DNA from: Actinokineospora diospyrosa
Lineage (GTDB): Bacteria; Actinomycetota; Actinomycetes; Mycobacteriales; Pseudonocardiaceae
Direction: 5' to 3'
Assembly (NCBI RefSeq): GCF_024171925.1
Contig: NZ_JAMTCO010000001.1
Span: 620,001-684,000 of the forward strand
Length of the DNA stretch: 64,000 nt
The notes below the pieces were generated by a model, which was not told where the DNA came from, did no database searches, and saw nothing but the letters and a program-made list of their open reading frames with translations. Made by a program: the position numbers and the translations under genes. Of this stretch, positions 49,257-55,937 are shown piece after piece (position 1 is the first letter of the stretch; each line of letters starts with the position of its first letter).

Positions 49257-50531
49257 CTAACGCAAGTCTGAGCCCTTCGTCTCCGGCAGGGTAAGGATCA
49301 CCACGAAAGCGATTGCGGCAGCCGCCGCCAGGTACCAGAAGAACACCGTCGAGGCGCCCGCGTCTGCCAAGGCTGTCACCACAAGAGGGGCTGTGCCGCC
49401 GAAGAGGGCGACGGTGAGGTTGTACCAAGCGCCGATGCCGAGGCCGCGTAGCTCGGTAGGGAACAGCTCGCTCATGATGGCTGGCGCGATGGACGTCATC
49501 GCGGTGTAGAAGCCCAAGCCAACGCAGAACACCACGACCAGGTTGCCCAAGCCGGGCCGCACCAATGTGGACAGTGGGTAGCTCAGGATCGCTATGGCCG
49601 CTGCCCAGACCAGCAGCTGCGGCTTGCGCCCGAACCTGTCCGCGATCGCTCCCATCGGGTACTGCAAGACCACGAACAGCGCTGTGCCTATAGACAACGC
49701 AAGGAACACGTCGCTGTCATCGGCCTTCCTCGTGTTGATCGCGAACGGCGTCAGTGCGCTGAAGAACGTGTAGTAGCACAGGGTCGACAACATCGTGAAG
49801 CCGACAAGGTGCCCGACCGCCTTGGGGTGCTCTCTTAGCGTCAACAGCAGCGGGTTGGTCAACCGCCGGGCCTTCTCCTTGTTGTCCTCGAACTGCTCGG
49901 TCTCGTCCAACGCCCGCCGCAAGACAAGCCCGACGAGGCCCAAAGCGCCGCCGACGATGAACGGAATCCGCCAGCCGTAGTCCTGCATGGCCGCCTTGCC
50001 CAACCCGCTGTTGAGGAAGTAGCCCAGCAACGACGCGATCAACACCGCCGACCCGGTCGAGATGTAGAAGAACGCCGAGTACCGCCCCCGCCGATCCGAA
50101 GGCGCGATCTCCGCGAGGTACGCCGACGCGTTAGACACCTCGCCGCCCATGGACAGCCCCTGCGTGATCCGCGCCAGGAGCAGCAAGATCGGCGCCAGCC
50201 ACCCCACCTGGGCGAACGTGGGCAACACCCCGATCGCCAACGACGCCCCCGCCATCGCCACGATCGTCAGGATCATCGCAGGCCGCCGCCCCCGGGTGTC
50301 GGCGAACCTGCCGAGCAGATACCCACCCAGGGGCCGGAAGAAGAACGCCAACGCATAGGTCGCGAACGTGGCGATCAGCGCCTTGCTACCCGGCTCGAAC
50401 AACGCGGTGGCAATGTAGGTACTGAACGTCGCATAGACAGTCCAGTCATACCACTCGACTGCGTTTCCGACGCTGGCGGCGATGAGCTTTCGTACGGGTA
50501 AGCGGTGTTTCTCGGTGACGGCCCCAACCAC
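49257..50531 (-). CDS. MHS-family metabolite:H+ symporter (MFS)
   Basis: 424 residues, 12 membrane segments. ASVGNAVEWYDWTVYATFSTYIA in helix 1, GRFADTRGRRPAM in loop 2-3 and ARITQGLSMGGEVSNASAYLAEIAP are hallmarks of the metabolite:H+ symporter group (KgtP/ProP/ShiA-like), which import dicarboxylates, betaines or aromatic acids. The GTG start is at 50531. It lies 93 bases downstream of the NB-ARC/TPR regulator on the same strand, so they might be co-transcribed. The substrate cannot be told from sequence. Confidence 0.9.
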   Translation of the reverse strand: MVGAVTEKHRLPVRKLIAASVGNAVEWYDWTVYATFSTYIATALFEPGSKALIATFATYALAFFFRPLGGYLLGRFADTRGRRPAMILTIVAMAGASLAIGVLPTFAQVGWLAPILLLLARITQGLSMGGEVSNASAYLAEIAPSDRRGRYSAFFYISTGSAVLIASLLGYFLNSGLGKAAMQDYGWRIPFIVGGALGLVGLVLRRALDETEQFEDNKEKARRLTNPLLLTLREHPKAVGHLVGFTMLSTLCYYTFFSALTPFAINTRKADDSDVFLALSIGTALFVVLQYPMGAIADRFGRKPQLLVWAAAIAILSYPLSTLVRPGLGNLVVVFCVGLGFYTAMTSIAPAIMSELFPTELRGLGIGAWYNLTVALFGGTAPLVVTALADAGASTVFFWYLAAAAAIAFVVILTLPETKGSDLR

Positions 50532-50624: not shown

Positions 50625-52709
50625 TTAGGCCAGCTTCCGCTGGATTGTGTCGGTGTCCGGGTCGGCGAGCTTCTCCAGGAGGACTAGCGCGGCCTCCCAG
50701 TGCTCCCGGGCCTCGGCGGGCCTGCCGAGGCCTGCTAGGGCGGCTCCGAGGGCGTCGTGTGTGCGGGCCTCGGTGTGCCAGTCGTCCAGGGATTGGGCTA
50801 GGGGGAGGGCTTGGGTGGCGTAGTCGAAGGCCTTGGTGGGGTCGTCCATGCTGTTGTGGACCCCGCTGAGGGCCGCGTAGACCATCGCCACGTTTCGCTG
50901 GTCGCCGTGCTCCTTGCGGATCTCCAGGGACCGCAGCAGGCTCGCGATGGCGGCGTCGTACTCGCCGAGGCTGTGTTGGGCCGCGCCGAGCAGCCTTAGG
51001 GCCGTGGCCTCGCCGAACGAGTCTCCCTCGGCGATGTGCAGGTCCAGAGCTTCGGTGAGCGTCGTGACGGCTGAGGCGACGTCGCCGAGTAGGTGTTGGA
51101 CGTCGCCTATGTCGCGGAGGGCCCACGCTTGAGCCCAGCGCTCGCCTAGTCCTTGCCAGCCCGCGCGAGCCAGGTCGAAGTGCTCAAGAGCGGTGGCGTA
51201 GTCACGCAATCCCCGGTAGGCGAGCGCGATGCTCGTGTGCAGCCACGCCAGTGCGCTCTGGTTCCCCGTTGCCCGCGCCGCGCGCAAAGCCACCAAGTGG
51301 GTGTCCACCCAGTCGTTCAGCGGACGGCGGACTAGGAACTCGCCGAACATGGTCACCGGCAGCTGCCATGCCAGCGTCAACTCACCCGCGCGCTCGGCTT
51401 GTGCGACCGAGTCCACCAGGTTTGCCCGCTCTTGGTCGCACCAGTGGAGGGCCTCCGCCCTGTCTGCGAACGTCGGTAGTTCTGCCGTTGGGTCGGGCAG
51501 ACCTATGTCGATACGGGTGAAGTTCGGCGCGAACACCCGAGCGGCAGCGTCGGCCACTTGCGCGTACCAGGTGAGCAAACGTCGTAGTGCTTGTGCGTGT
51601 TCTGGGTCTTCGGCGGCTCGTTCGGCGGCGTATACGCGAAGGAGATCGTGGAACCGGTAGCGCTTGGGGGAGTCTTCGCGAACCAGGTGGGCATTTACGA
51701 GCGCGTCCAGCAATCGACGGGTCGTTGCCACGGGGAGATCCACCAGTGCCGCGACAGCACCAACGCTGATGTCTGGTCCCGGGGCTACGCCGAGGAGGCG
51801 GAACAGCCGGGCCGCTTCAGGCTGCAACGTCCGGTAGGACAAGGAGAACACCACGCGCACTGCGGCAGTGGGGTCCTCATCATCGGTGAGAGCGTCTAAG
51901 CGCTCTTGCCGCAACTCCTCGGCGAAGTCGGACAGGCTCAACGACTCGTTCGCGGCGAGCCTGCCGCCGACGATGCGCAATGCCAGAGGCAGGTAGCCAC
52001 AACTGCGCGCCAACTCCGCGGCCGCATCGGGTTCGGCCGCCACTCGGTCGCTGCCCGCGATCCGGGCCAGCACCTCGACTGCCCGCTGCGGGGGCAGCAC
52101 GTCCAAAGCCATCCGTTGAGCCCCCTCCCTGGTCGCCAATCCCGTCAGTCTACTGCGACTGGTGATCAGCACGCGGCACGTAGGCGAGCCGGGCAGCAGC
52201 GGGCGGACCTGCTGCGGGGTGGCCGCGTTGTCCAGGACGATGAGGATTCGCTTGCCATACACCAGGGATCGGTACAGAGCCGCTCGCGGCTCAGTACCCA
52301 CCGGGATGCGTTCGCCAGGTATGTCTAACGACCGCAGAATCTGCTCTAACGCGTCCTCGGCAGGCACAGCGTCGTCGGCATGGTAGCCGCGGAGGTCAAG
52401 GTAGAGGTCTCCGTCAGGAAAGCTGTCCCGTACCTGATGGGCCCAATGCGTTGCCAATGAAGTCTTCCCGACGCCACCGATCCCCACAATCATCGTTGGT
52501 ACAACCGGAGTAGGGCTCTCCAGCCAGTTGCCCAACGACGCCAGGTACTTCTCTCGATCGTTGAAGTGTGCGGTATCTGCCGGTAGCTGCCGGGGGACCG
52601 GCAGTGCTACCTGCGTGGTGGAGAAGTGAACGCCGCCGGCGATAGTGTGCGCCTGGACGACGTTCGATGATGTTGCGGCCAAATGGTTCTGGGTCGGTTC
52701 GTCGGCCAC
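50625..52709 (-). CDS. AfsR-like NB-ARC/TPR regulatory protein without a DNA-binding domain
   Basis: 694 residues. A short N-terminal segment with SSNVVQAHTIAGGVHF, common in actinobacterial NB-ARC proteins, precedes an NB-ARC ATPase (GIGGVGKTSL P-loop near 78, ILIVLDNA near 155, TSRSRL near 182) and a C-terminal TPR region (about 430-690; repeats such as ALEHFDLARAGWQGLGERWAQAW and AIASLLRSLEIRKEHGDQRNVAM). No SARP or HTH domain is visible, so it is a STAND ATPase that probably acts through protein partners. A GTG at 52709 with GAGGGA upstream is preferred to TTG 52733. It is divergent from the lanthipeptide synthetase and could sense its signal. Confidence 0.88.
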   Translation of the reverse strand: MADEPTQNHLAATSSNVVQAHTIAGGVHFSTTQVALPVPRQLPADTAHFNDREKYLASLGNWLESPTPVVPTMIVGIGGVGKTSLATHWAHQVRDSFPDGDLYLDLRGYHADDAVPAEDALEQILRSLDIPGERIPVGTEPRAALYRSLVYGKRILIVLDNAATPQQVRPLLPGSPTCRVLITSRSRLTGLATREGAQRMALDVLPPQRAVEVLARIAGSDRVAAEPDAAAELARSCGYLPLALRIVGGRLAANESLSLSDFAEELRQERLDALTDDEDPTAAVRVVFSLSYRTLQPEAARLFRLLGVAPGPDISVGAVAALVDLPVATTRRLLDALVNAHLVREDSPKRYRFHDLLRVYAAERAAEDPEHAQALRRLLTWYAQVADAAARVFAPNFTRIDIGLPDPTAELPTFADRAEALHWCDQERANLVDSVAQAERAGELTLAWQLPVTMFGEFLVRRPLNDWVDTHLVALRAARATGNQSALAWLHTSIALAYRGLRDYATALEHFDLARAGWQGLGERWAQAWALRDIGDVQHLLGDVASAVTTLTEALDLHIAEGDSFGEATALRLLGAAQHSLGEYDAAIASLLRSLEIRKEHGDQRNVAMVYAALSGVHNSMDDPTKAFDYATQALPLAQSLDDWHTEARTHDALGAALAGLGRPAEAREHWEAALVLLEKLADPDTDTIQRKLA

Positions 52710-52957
52710 GGGTGTCCCTCGGCGGGTGATCAACGGATCGGCAGGCGGCCACTGTAGCGGTCCCGGGCTGGTGGCGGGCGGGATTCACGGCCGGTGGGCG
52801 GGAACTCGCCCGCCGGGCGCCCGCAGCCCGTTCGAGCAATCGGGTCGGGGCCTGTTCACCGGCGGTCACCTCCGGCAATCCTATTGATGGAACCCACTGC
52901 ACCTACCGTGTTATCTAACGGTGAACGGCTTGTTTCAGGGCGGACAAAGGAGTCTAG

Positions 52958-55726
52958 TTGCGAACGGGCCCCTCGTCGGGCCCGAGATCATGGGGGATGG
53001 TCGCGATGACGTTCGAGGACAACGCTTTGCTCGCCGACTGCGCCGCGGCGGTGCTCGCCCGCCACGAGCCGCGGCAATGGCGGCACGCCGTCGACGAGCG
53101 TTGGCACTACGTGCTGCCCGCCGACCACCAGCGTCGTGACCAGGGCTGGAAGTTGCACGTTCCCGCGACTCCGCTGTCGGCGTGCTTAGTGCTGTCCCGC
53201 GCGGTGGAAGTGCTCGCCCGGCACCGGTGCGCGTTCAAGTTCGCCGCCACCCTGCGCCAGTTGCACGAACTCGTTGGCCCCAACGCCGATCGCAACGCGG
53301 CGGGCAAGTTCCTCACCGTGTACCCCAACGACGATGCCCACGCGCGTGCGGTAGCCGAAGATCTCCACGAGGCGACTCTTGGTCTACCGGGCCAATGGAT
53401 CCTCACCGACCGCCGGTTTCGTCCGCATTCCCAGGTCTTCTACCGCTACGGCGGATTCACCCCGCCGATGGTGCTGACCGACGACGGCGAGTACCGCTCC
53501 GTGCTCCGCGCACCGGACGGAACGGTCATTCCGGACCAGCGCGGTGTTGGTCGAGTGGCCCCCTCGTGGGCGGTCGACCCCTTCGTCCACGCGACGGCCG
53601 AACCGTCCACTGTGGCCTCCACCGCCCCCGCGGCCCGCACTGCCCCGTCGGTCTCGGCGCCCCCGTCGGCCTCTGCGGCCACTGCGGCCACTGCGGCTTC
53701 GGCGGTGCTCATCGGCGGCAGGTTCACCGTCCGCACGGCGATCCGGCAGAACAACCGGGGCGGGGTGTACCTGGCCGAGGACCCCGCGGGGACCCGGGTC
53801 GTGCTCAAGCGCTTCCGCGAACACACCGGCGCCACCGTGGACGGCGGCGACTCGCGCACCCGCGCCCGCGCCGAGGCGCGCATGTTGTCGCTGCTCGGCC
53901 CGCAGGGCGCCGCGCCGGAGTTCATCGACATCTTCACCTCCGGCACCGACATCTTCGTGGCCCAGCAGTGGATCGACGGGGTGCCGCTGCGCCGGTTCGT
54001 CGCCCGCGAGCTGCGCCCCAGCGGCACCGCGCTCGCCCTGGACCTGGACCTCGTCGTGGACCTCACCGAGCAGCTGCTCAGGTTGCTCGCGAAGGTCCAC
54101 GCCGCCGGGTACGTGCTCGGTGACCTCACCCCGAACAACGTGCTCGTCACCCAGCAGCGGCGGCTGGTGCTGATCGACCTGGAGTCCGCGCTGCGGCCGG
54201 ACGACATCGCTCCCCGGCTGCTCACGCCCGGCTACGCCGCCCCGGAGGAAGAAGGGCGGGCGAGGATGATCGCCGTGGCGCCCGACCGGGCCACCGACCT
54301 CTACGGCCTCGGCGCGACCCTGTTCCACCTCGCCTCCGGCGCACACCCGCCCGCGTCCAAGGGCGCCCGGGTGCGCGAGATGGTCCGGTCGATGGCACTG
54401 CGCAACCCCGTCGCGGCCAGACTCGCCCCGGTCATCACCGAGCTCCTCGCACCGGAACCCGCGCGACGGCCGGGTATCGAAGACGTTCGCGCGATCCTGG
54501 CCAGGCCGGTACCCGCGCCCGAGGTGCCCGCCCAGCCCGACATCGCCGAGCTCATCGACGGGATGCTCGACGACGTCGTCACCACCGCGGACCCGGCGGG
54601 TGCCTCGATGTGGCGCAACTCGGAAACGGCGAGCCGGTACGACCCGTGCTCTGTGCACGTCGGCGCTCCCGGGGTGATGCTGGTGCTGTGCCAAGCGGCG
54701 CGGGCTGGCTATAGCGAAGTGCTCGACACCATTGACACCGCGGCCCGGTGGACGATGCGCAAGCTGCCCGACGAGCCACGCGTGCTGCCCGGTCTGATGT
54801 TCGGGCGCGCAGGCACCGCCGTCAGCCTCTATGAGGCAGGCGTGGTGTTAGGCGCAGAGGACGTCTCCGCGGCGGGCCTGGACTTAGCGCGGATCCTGCC
54901 CACGCAGTGGCACGTGCCGGACGTCTTCCACGGTGTCGCGGGCGCCGGGCTGGCACTGGTCCGGCTGTGGCGGCACACCGGCGACGACGACCTGCTCGCG
55001 CGGGCCCGCCGGTGCGCGGACGGCCTGCTCGGCAGCGCGACCCAGGACAGCGCCACCGGTGGTCCACAGTGGACCGCGACCGGGAACTTCCTGCTGGCGG
55101 GCACCCGGCACTGGGGCTTCGCGCACGGCACCGCGGGCATCGCCACCTTCCTGCTCGACATCGCCGAGGCCACCGGTGACGACCGCTACCTCGACGTGGC
55201 CCGCGCCGCGGCCGAGTCCCTGGGGCGCGTCGCCATCCTCGACGGCGAGGCCGCGTTCTGGCCCAGCGGTGAGGACGACGAGCACGCCGACACGGTCCGC
55301 CTCACCGGGTTCTGCAGCGGCGCCACCGGCGTCGGCACGTTCCTGCTGCGGCTGCACCAGCTCACCGGCGACCGGGCGGCCCGCGACCTGGCCGAGCGCG
55401 CGGCCACCGCCGTGCACCACGCCAACTGGACGTCCCCGCCGCTGTGGTGCCACGGCCTGGCCACCGACGGCGACTTCCTGCTCGACTGCGCAGGCCTGGC
55501 CGACTTGGCCACCACCCACCGCGACCGGGCGGCCGACACCGCCCGCGTCATCGCCGCCCGCGCCGTGCGCCGCCGCGGCCGCCTGCTCACCCCGGACGAC
55601 ACCGGTGACGTCGTCGCCTCGTTCGCCAACGGGTACGTGGGCGCCCTGTCCTTCCTGCTCCGCCTGCACCACGGCGGCGCCCGTCCCCTCCTGCCCGACT
55701 ACGCCCGAGACGTCGTCTCGGCCTGA
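52958..55726 (+). CDS. Class IV-like lanthipeptide synthetase (lyase-kinase-cyclase)
   Basis: 922 residues from a TTG with GGAG five bases upstream; ATG at 52997 or 53006 are alternatives. The N-terminal 1-205 resembles the phospho-Ser/Thr lyase of LanKC/LanL (GWKLHVPATPLSA, FLTVYPNDD, DRRFRPHSQVFYRYGGF). An Ala/Ser/Pro linker is followed by a kinase (about 245-520; VLKRF Lys285, GDLTPNN near 388, LIDLES). The LanC-like cyclase (about 600-915) keeps the zinc ligands Cys786 (FCSGATG) and Cys831-His832 (WCHGL), which class III enzymes lack; this points to class IV. It would phosphorylate and dehydrate Ser/Thr of the precursor encoded 24 bases downstream and form (methyl)lanthionine rings. Confidence 0.92.
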   Translation: MRTGPSSGPRSWGMVAMTFEDNALLADCAAAVLARHEPRQWRHAVDERWHYVLPADHQRRDQGWKLHVPATPLSACLVLSRAVEVLARHRCAFKFAATLRQLHELVGPNADRNAAGKFLTVYPNDDAHARAVAEDLHEATLGLPGQWILTDRRFRPHSQVFYRYGGFTPPMVLTDDGEYRSVLRAPDGTVIPDQRGVGRVAPSWAVDPFVHATAEPSTVASTAPAARTAPSVSAPPSASAATAATAASAVLIGGRFTVRTAIRQNNRGGVYLAEDPAGTRVVLKRFREHTGATVDGGDSRTRARAEARMLSLLGPQGAAPEFIDIFTSGTDIFVAQQWIDGVPLRRFVARELRPSGTALALDLDLVVDLTEQLLRLLAKVHAAGYVLGDLTPNNVLVTQQRRLVLIDLESALRPDDIAPRLLTPGYAAPEEEGRARMIAVAPDRATDLYGLGATLFHLASGAHPPASKGARVREMVRSMALRNPVAARLAPVITELLAPEPARRPGIEDVRAILARPVPAPEVPAQPDIAELIDGMLDDVVTTADPAGASMWRNSETASRYDPCSVHVGAPGVMLVLCQAARAGYSEVLDTIDTAARWTMRKLPDEPRVLPGLMFGRAGTAVSLYEAGVVLGAEDVSAAGLDLARILPTQWHVPDVFHGVAGAGLALVRLWRHTGDDDLLARARRCADGLLGSATQDSATGGPQWTATGNFLLAGTRHWGFAHGTAGIATFLLDIAEATGDDRYLDVARAAAESLGRVAILDGEAAFWPSGEDDEHADTVRLTGFCSGATGVGTFLLRLHQLTGDRAARDLAERAATAVHHANWTSPPLWCHGLATDGDFLLDCAGLADLATTHRDRAADTARVIAARAVRRRGRLLTPDDTGDVVASFANGYVGALSFLLRLHHGGARPLLPDYARDVVSA

Positions 55727-55750
55727 CCCCAGCGAAGGGAGGTGCCCAGG

Positions 55751-55885
55751 ATGGAACTGACCGTGAACGCGCTCGACCTGCTGCCCGCCGTCGAGCAGAC
55801 CGGCGACGAGCCGCAGCTGCTCTCCAGCTGCTGCAGCCACTGCTTCTCGTCCATGATGCTCGTCACCAACGGCTGCGAGTGGTGA
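55751..55885 (+). CDS. Lanthipeptide precursor peptide
   Basis: 44 residues, ATG preceded by GGGAGG. The N-terminal half (LTVNALDLLPAVEQTGDEPQ) is an acidic, amphipathic leader with an LDLL motif like class III/IV leaders. The C-terminal half is SSCCSHCFSSMMLVTNGCEW: five Ser, one Thr and four Cys in 20 residues, an ideal lanthionine substrate. No Ser-x2-Ser-x3-Cys labionin pattern is present, which agrees with the class IV-type cyclase. It is 24 bases downstream of the synthetase and followed by a hairpin. The leader/core cut is not determined, no protease gene is nearby, and I recognise no known family for this core. Confidence 0.88.
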   Translation: MELTVNALDLLPAVEQTGDEPQLLSSCCSHCFSSMMLVTNGCEW

Positions 55886-55887
55886 CC

Positions 55888-55937
55888 CATGTGATCGGTG
55901 GTCGTGCCCGACAACCGGACCGACCACCGGTCATGTG
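55888..55937 (+). terminator. Hairpin after the precursor peptide gene
   Basis: 55888-55904 pairs along all 17 positions with 55921-55937 when G-U pairs are allowed, with a 16-base loop, two bases after the precursor stop. It may terminate transcription or protect the precursor mRNA. Confidence 0.75.

Follow-up and report, generated by a model that had tools for sequence, protein, structure and literature searches.

Does the cysteine-dense open reading frame (ORF) of 44 codons that follows a lanthionine synthetase gene in Actinokineospora diospyrosa encode the substrate of that enzyme, and to which class of lanthipeptides would the pair belong? The question is raised by a stretch of 64,000 nucleotides (hereafter the window) of this 8.1-Mb genome (NCBI RefSeq assembly GCF_024171925.1, contig NZ_JAMTCO010000001.1, positions 620,001 to 684,000 of the forward strand), in which a reading of the letters alone, here called the sequence-only reading, had proposed a compact class IV locus. 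The evidence described below makes it highly probable that the two genes, named lanL and lanA, constitute a two-gene class IV lanthipeptide operon.

The synthetase and its class

The lanL gene (53006..55726, + strand) codes for 906 residues from its likely ATG. Pfam analysis of its product revealed RamC_N (lyase), Pkinase and LANC_like domains, so that the N-terminal lyase, the kinase and the C-terminal LanC domain are carried by a single protein. With the NCBIfam models, the product scored 858.4 bits against NF038150, the class IV LanL model (cut-off 650), and 422.3 bits against NF038151, the class III model, under its cut-off of 575. By its sequence, the cyclase domain holds the Cys-Cys-His zinc ligands: Cys786 (codon 55313..55315, + strand) is found in TGFCSGATG, and Cys831 and His832 (55448..55453, + strand) in PLWCHGLAT, the residues being numbered from an upstream TTG discussed below. 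An alignment of 36 LanL-type proteins (six from the genus and 30 others; loci L093 and L106, located by their last piece only, were omitted here and from the tree) has Cys at position 786 in 33 rows, Cys at 831 in 33, and at 832 His in 29 and Cys in six. These results bear out the lyase-kinase-LanC protein with intact ligands of the sequence-only reading, as well as its choice of class IV over class III. Since the class IV model is passed and the zinc ligands are present, lanL is confirmed, at the level of sequence, as a class IV lanthionine synthetase; neither a LanC domain devoid of zinc ligands nor a class III score over the cut-off, both marks of class III, was observed. The closest solved sequence is 8car_A (E 1e-56, residues 54-908), named just as a serine/threonine protein kinase, and three of the further solved-structure matches are named class III LanKC.

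The precursor gene and its conservation

Between the last base of the lanL stop codon (55726) and the lanA ATG (55751) there is a gap of 24 bases. The lanA gene (55751..55885, + strand) encodes the 44-residue peptide MELTVNALDLLPAVEQTGDEPQLLSSCCSHCFSSMMLVTNGCEW, in which residues 1-24 are the putative leader and residues 25-44 (SSCCSHCFSSMMLVTNGCEW) the putative core, the 24/25 border being an assumption. The leader contains the motif LDLLP and the 20 C-terminal residues include four Cys, five Ser and one Thr; lanL is therefore adjoined by a gene with a leader and a C-terminal core bearing Cys, Ser and Thr. Six bases lie between the ribosome-binding site GGGAGGTG (55737..55744, + strand) and the ATG; among the five orthologues in other genomes, four carry AGGAGG and one AAGGTG. 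Behind the gene, a hairpin (55888..55937, + strand) with a stem of 17 pairs, three of them G-U, has a predicted minimum free energy of -34.3 kcal/mol (z -3.45, 1 of 200 shuffles equally good). The terminator scan listed nothing at this hairpin, which has no T-run; it may mark the end of the transcript. Direct reading of the DNA thus agrees with what had been claimed of the short gene, its ribosome-binding site, its core composition and its 17-bp hairpin. Hairpins of differing sequence are predicted at the same place in all six species that carry the gene, the shuffle test being that of the window's hairpin.

To establish how far lanA is conserved, genome samples of the family, order, class and phylum were searched; these samples partly share genomes and represent a selection from larger groups. 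The precursor was found (E 0.01 or better) in 6 of 297 family genomes, all of them Actinokineospora, a genus sampled by 16 genomes. The same six of the 16 harbor the orthologous synthetase, which in the five others is 66-85% identical to that of the window, and lanA stands directly behind it in 6/6, with 11 to 41 bases from the lanL stop to the lanA start. The precursor was not matched at E 0.01 in the ten remaining genomes of the genus, whose synthetase matches are distant (30-37% identity) in four and absent at E 1e-20 in six. The possibility raised with the sequence-only reading, that the small ORF is not conserved beside homologous synthetases, was thereby examined, and the ORF was retained at every genus orthologue. 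Because six of the 16 genus genomes have the ORF, each time next to the synthetase, lanA is a genuine gene.

Among the six LanA sequences, 35 of the 44 positions are invariant, including 17 of the 20 in the putative core (consensus SSCCSHCFSS[LM]M[LI][VL]TNGCEW), where every Cys, Ser and Thr is retained. When the 15 pairs of genes were pooled, the uncorrected silent and replacement differences per site (pS and pN) were 0.30 and 0.025 in the core, silent changes being about twelve times as frequent, and 0.32 and 0.087 in the leader. At the nucleotide level, the orthologues share with the window 94% identity over the core and 88% over the leader, and outside lanA the value is 66% in the 60 bases before the gene and 48% and 38% in two 75-base stretches behind it. 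Outside the genus, a profile of the genus precursor returned weak matches alone (E 0.003-0.1, 23 loci) from 396 phylum and 397 order genomes, and LanL was detected at E 1e-3 in the 1.5-kb flanks of none of these 23 loci. A tblastn search of the plasmid collection with the precursor gave no match.

Proposed biosynthesis and its alternatives

Genes, domains, ligands, conservation and selection were read from the DNA; modification, ring pattern, proteolysis, export and any activity are inferred. In the proposed pathway, LanL would bind the N-terminal leader of LanA through LDLLP, its kinase domain would phosphorylate the Ser and Thr residues of the core, and its lyase domain would strip the phosphate to give dehydroalanine (Dha) and dehydrobutyrine (Dhb). 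The zinc-bearing LanC domain would then add Cys thiols to these dehydrated residues, with an outcome of up to six dehydrations and up to four thioether rings from the four Cys. The leader would be cut by a protease encoded elsewhere, perhaps an M1 peptidase, the family of AplP; four M1-peptidase matches lie elsewhere in the genome. The leader of the class IV peptide SflA is reported to be removed by an AplP-like metalloprotease whose gene is not part of the cluster (PMC10885120). Most likely the product is a peptide that is secreted and, in Actinokineospora, strongly constrained.

The layout of the core bears on the rings that could be formed. Ser25 and Ser26 precede Cys27 and Cys28, and Ser29, Ser33, Ser34 and Thr39 follow. 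Because only these two Ser stand ahead of Cys27 and Cys28 in the putative core, it is very likely that one or more rings join a Cys to a dehydrated residue nearer the C-terminus, as in venezuelin. The lyase, kinase and cyclase activities of its synthetase VenL have been demonstrated in vitro, and three of the four proposed venezuelin rings run from Cys to a later residue (Cys32-Dhb43, Cys34-Dhb39 and Cys45-Dha49), the fourth being a large ring from Dhb31 to Cys50 (PMC2843593). A nested pattern of the venezuelin type is thus feasible for LanA and the most likely arrangement; a small ring of the ordinary kind could arise just as well at Thr39-Asn-Gly-Cys42. More tentatively, the core may represent a class IV scaffold of new structure, its 20 residues forming a compact globule with four rings and with Cys27 and Cys28 both closing towards later residues, nested like venezuelin in the absence of its sequence and under its own AfsR-like NB-ARC/TPR control. 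One such map would join Cys28 to Ser33 or Ser34, Cys27 to Thr39 and Ser25 or Ser26 to Cys42.

Three other explanations were weighed against the class IV operon. In a class III (LanKC) locus, labionin or lanthionine would be made without zinc by an enzyme of the same three-domain plan; RamC, the namesake of the RamC_N family, is a class III enzyme, NF038151 also matches with 422 bits, and the solved structures matched that bear a lanthipeptide class name are all of class III. That score is nevertheless below the cut-off of 575, whereas the class IV score of 858 exceeds 650, the lanL product retains the C-C-H ligands, and the LanA core is devoid of the labionin motif SxxSxxxC, so that a class III locus is very improbable. 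Alternatively, lanL could be a degenerate or orphan synthetase standing beside a chance ORF that is not its substrate. Such a view is compatible with the LanL loci mined outside the genus, 16 of 32 of which showed no recognisable precursor in the flanks examined, but the small ORF of the window is conserved, adjacent and under selection across six species, and we give this explanation hardly any credence.

The remaining alternative concerns the product of the class IV operon rather than the operon itself, and it is unlikely, though much less remote than the two preceding ones: some of Cys27, Cys28 and Cys31 would be engaged in a disulfide or left free instead of in a thioether. The crowded SSCCSHC, with its adjacent cysteines, offers few ordinary N-to-C partners, four Cys and six Ser/Thr need not all react, and one class IV product is reported with two rings against three dehydrations (PMC9576775). 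On the other hand, VenL-treated VenA showed no Cys alkylation, and rings that LanL closes from a Cys to a residue nearer the C-terminus have been reported (PMC2843593).

Several results weigh against the class IV operon itself, in addition to the 16 loci of other genomes where no candidate precursor was recognised. A profile of nine precursors of other LanL loci, that of the window excluded, does speak for the operon in placing lanA first among the 1523 start/ORF candidates of 30-120 residues in the window, at 10.8 bits against 6.4 bits for the runner-up; the match is nevertheless weak (E 0.041), and this test was not fully blind, the nine peptides having been picked by leader patterns chosen with the LanA leader in view. 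No exporter or protease conserved with lanLA was found among the genes within about 5-8 kb. Finally, the prediction of a class IV locus guarantees no product, since refactoring in E. coli yielded modified peptides from just two of seven class IV loci (PMC9576775).

The locus, its neighbours and other class IV systems

The sequence-only reading had placed the start of the synthetase at TTG 52958, from which the open frame (52958-55726, + strand) extends over 922 codons. Comparison of the orthologues disagrees: the five lack an in-frame TTG at this place, L039 showing a GTG in frame, and an in-frame ATG occurs in all six genomes at or near the place of 53006, 48 bases past the TTG place in five of six and 45 in L041. 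Because this ATG is kept in six genomes and the TTG is absent from five orthologues, a start at 53006 is favored and one at 52958 appears unlikely. The TTG also begins on the last base of a conserved block, TTGTTT-N17-TCTAGT (52930..52958, + strand). In the alignment of the six orthologous upstream regions, CTTGT is found in all and GTCTAG in four, with GTCTAT and GCCTGG in the remaining two. The block, a possible promoter, was not among the sites listed by the promoter consensus scan.

The gene order in the window is MFS (49257-50531, - strand), NB-ARC/TPR (50628..52733, - strand, divergent from lanL), lanL and lanA (+), nitroreductase (+) and thrS (-). The NB-ARC gene, lanL and lanA are placed between the MFS and nitroreductase genes in three of six species (that of the window, L039 and L040), with extra DNA after lanA of about 1 kb in L039 and about 3 kb in L040. 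L038 has the MFS, NB-ARC, lanL and lanA genes, and the 15 kb fetched from it gave no nitroreductase match. In L041 and L042, lanLA lies near the same nitroreductase/thrS region and neither an MFS nor an NB-ARC match was obtained in the stretch fetched; upstream of lanL are an EF-G-like GTPase gene in L041 (10599-12464, + strand, divergent from lanL; possibly of the ribosomal protection type) and a Pfam HTH_18 gene in L042.

The thrS/nitroreductase region was inspected in six of the ten genus genomes that do not contain lanLA (G119, G167, G152, G190, G136 and G100). One of the six, G167, shows an empty site, its MFS and nitroreductase genes being about 220 bases apart (L116 7058-9152); the other five have no MFS match in the stretch and are uninformative for the left border, and G190 and G100 have no nitroreductase match either. 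Because the MFS gene adjoins the nitroreductase gene in G167, it seems, from this arrangement, to belong to the chromosomal backbone. Its candidacy as exporter of the peptide is not supported.

The best-scoring models for the NB-ARC/TPR protein are AfsR and, a little lower, the HaaT protein known from a cyclophane peptide system, with both scores well short of their cut-offs. A close orthologue (E 1e-150 or better) was detected in four of the 16 genus genomes, all four with lanLA, and not in the other 12. Since these four genomes share a single branch in the synthetase tree, the co-occurrence may reflect one event; the protein is a possible regulator of the locus. Further LanC-domain genes occur in the same genome at C4:502173-504515, C9:446393-447529, C27:996-2096, C21:54499-55449 and C1:484113-484892, one of them an 848-residue LanKC/LanL-like frame below the class IV cut-off.

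Among the known systems closest to lanLA is venezuelin of Streptomyces venezuelae (VenL/VenA). Both loci pair a three-domain zinc LanL with an adjoining precursor gene, both peptides have their last Cys near the C-terminus, and, likewise, no protease is present in the venezuelin cluster. The ven locus has the ABC transporter genes venTH (PMC2843593), whereas none is conserved at lanLA and none was found among its identified neighbours (MFS, NB-ARC/TPR, nitroreductase and thrS). The precursor of locus L085 is venezuelin-like; its first Thr-Cys-x-Cys resembles the Ser-Cys-Cys of LanA, whereas no core similarity was seen by eye and the L085 LanL is on a separate branch of the tree from lanL. The pair thus has neither the similar core nor the adjoining venTH-type exporter of the venezuelin family. 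Globisporin (SgbL/SgbA), streptocollin and SflA share the LanL class with it (PMC12328550).

The LanL survey retained 10 of 200 order genomes and 21 of 394 class genomes that passed the thresholds, the genome of the window being counted in both, and 32 loci outside the genus were mined (L075-L107 without the genus member L081; L083 and L084 fall short of the class IV cut-off). Eight of the 32 (L077, L078, L085, L094, L095, L097, L098 and L107; nine peptides) have a downstream precursor with a leader like xxLQxLP. L078 has two tandem precursors, which follow the LanL stop at distances of 93 and 280 bases and have near-identical leaders and different cores. Seven loci (L082, L083, L084 and L099-L102) have an upstream candidate of another type; L082, L084, L099, L100, L101 and L102 form a deep LanL branch with other leaders, and a PRDAG or IRDAG motif recurs in several of these candidates. 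L103 (G953) has a long-leader candidate, an ORF of 99 residues that begins where a LanL-like gene scoring 666 bits ends, and whose own end, MSHCTDTTCWSSDCPGTCYLTIITDSPEPVM, is rich in Cys, Thr and Ser; its long leader is Nif11-like and unusual for class IV. For the LanLs nearest to lanL in the tree (L087-L090, L092 and L105), no precursor was recognised in the flanks examined.

Adjacent cysteines (CC), which the sequence-only reading had remarked in the LanA core, are indeed present and are unusual rather than unique: CC also occurs close to where the putative core begins in three of the eight loci (SYMDYAAGCCSFTCGSQSCGATC, SLEPMMCCDTTFTTDRTDGC and ALEPAMCCDTDHTSGQC). The precursors of L077, L094 and L095 resemble LanA in their leader, which has LQxLP, and in a CC close to the core start that precedes Ser or Asp; they differ from it in the remaining core, and their LanLs, 36-40% identical to that of the window, form no single clade with it, so that CC may have arisen repeatedly. 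Since the nearest Ser/Thr before CC is 6-10 residues off in these three cores, perhaps in the leader, and most Ser/Thr follow, their sequences suggest that rings from Cys towards the C-terminus, or Cys outside thioethers, are likely. On the LanL tree, the CC label changes three times among 20 labelled rows (1 of 500 shuffles as low), a low count that near-copies alone can give; L102, where CC stands close to the end of the upstream candidate, was placed in no group.

The core had also been described as unrecognised among known ones, and this was tested in part. A full-text literature search with three core fragments found no paper, subscription papers and supplements being mostly outside its reach, and a search for Actinokineospora with lanthipeptide or class IV found no account of this peptide in titles and abstract openings. 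In a 2020 survey, 815 class IV loci and 401 precursors are listed, 86% of the precursors unannotated (PMC7268733), and that list may well include this LanA. A 2022 paper counts two class IV members characterised before it and adds two more (PMC9576775), and a 2025 review also names globisporin and cites streptocollin (PMC12328550).

Altogether, lanLA is a sound and conserved locus of an established class, the class IV lanthipeptides, and its core is apparently uncharacterised. Few class IV lanthipeptides have been characterised despite the number of loci catalogued, and this pair is minimal, with a precursor gene short enough to escape notice. The core deserves attention because of its adjacent cysteines, and the natural LanA variants of the six species provide a ready test of how LanL handles them.

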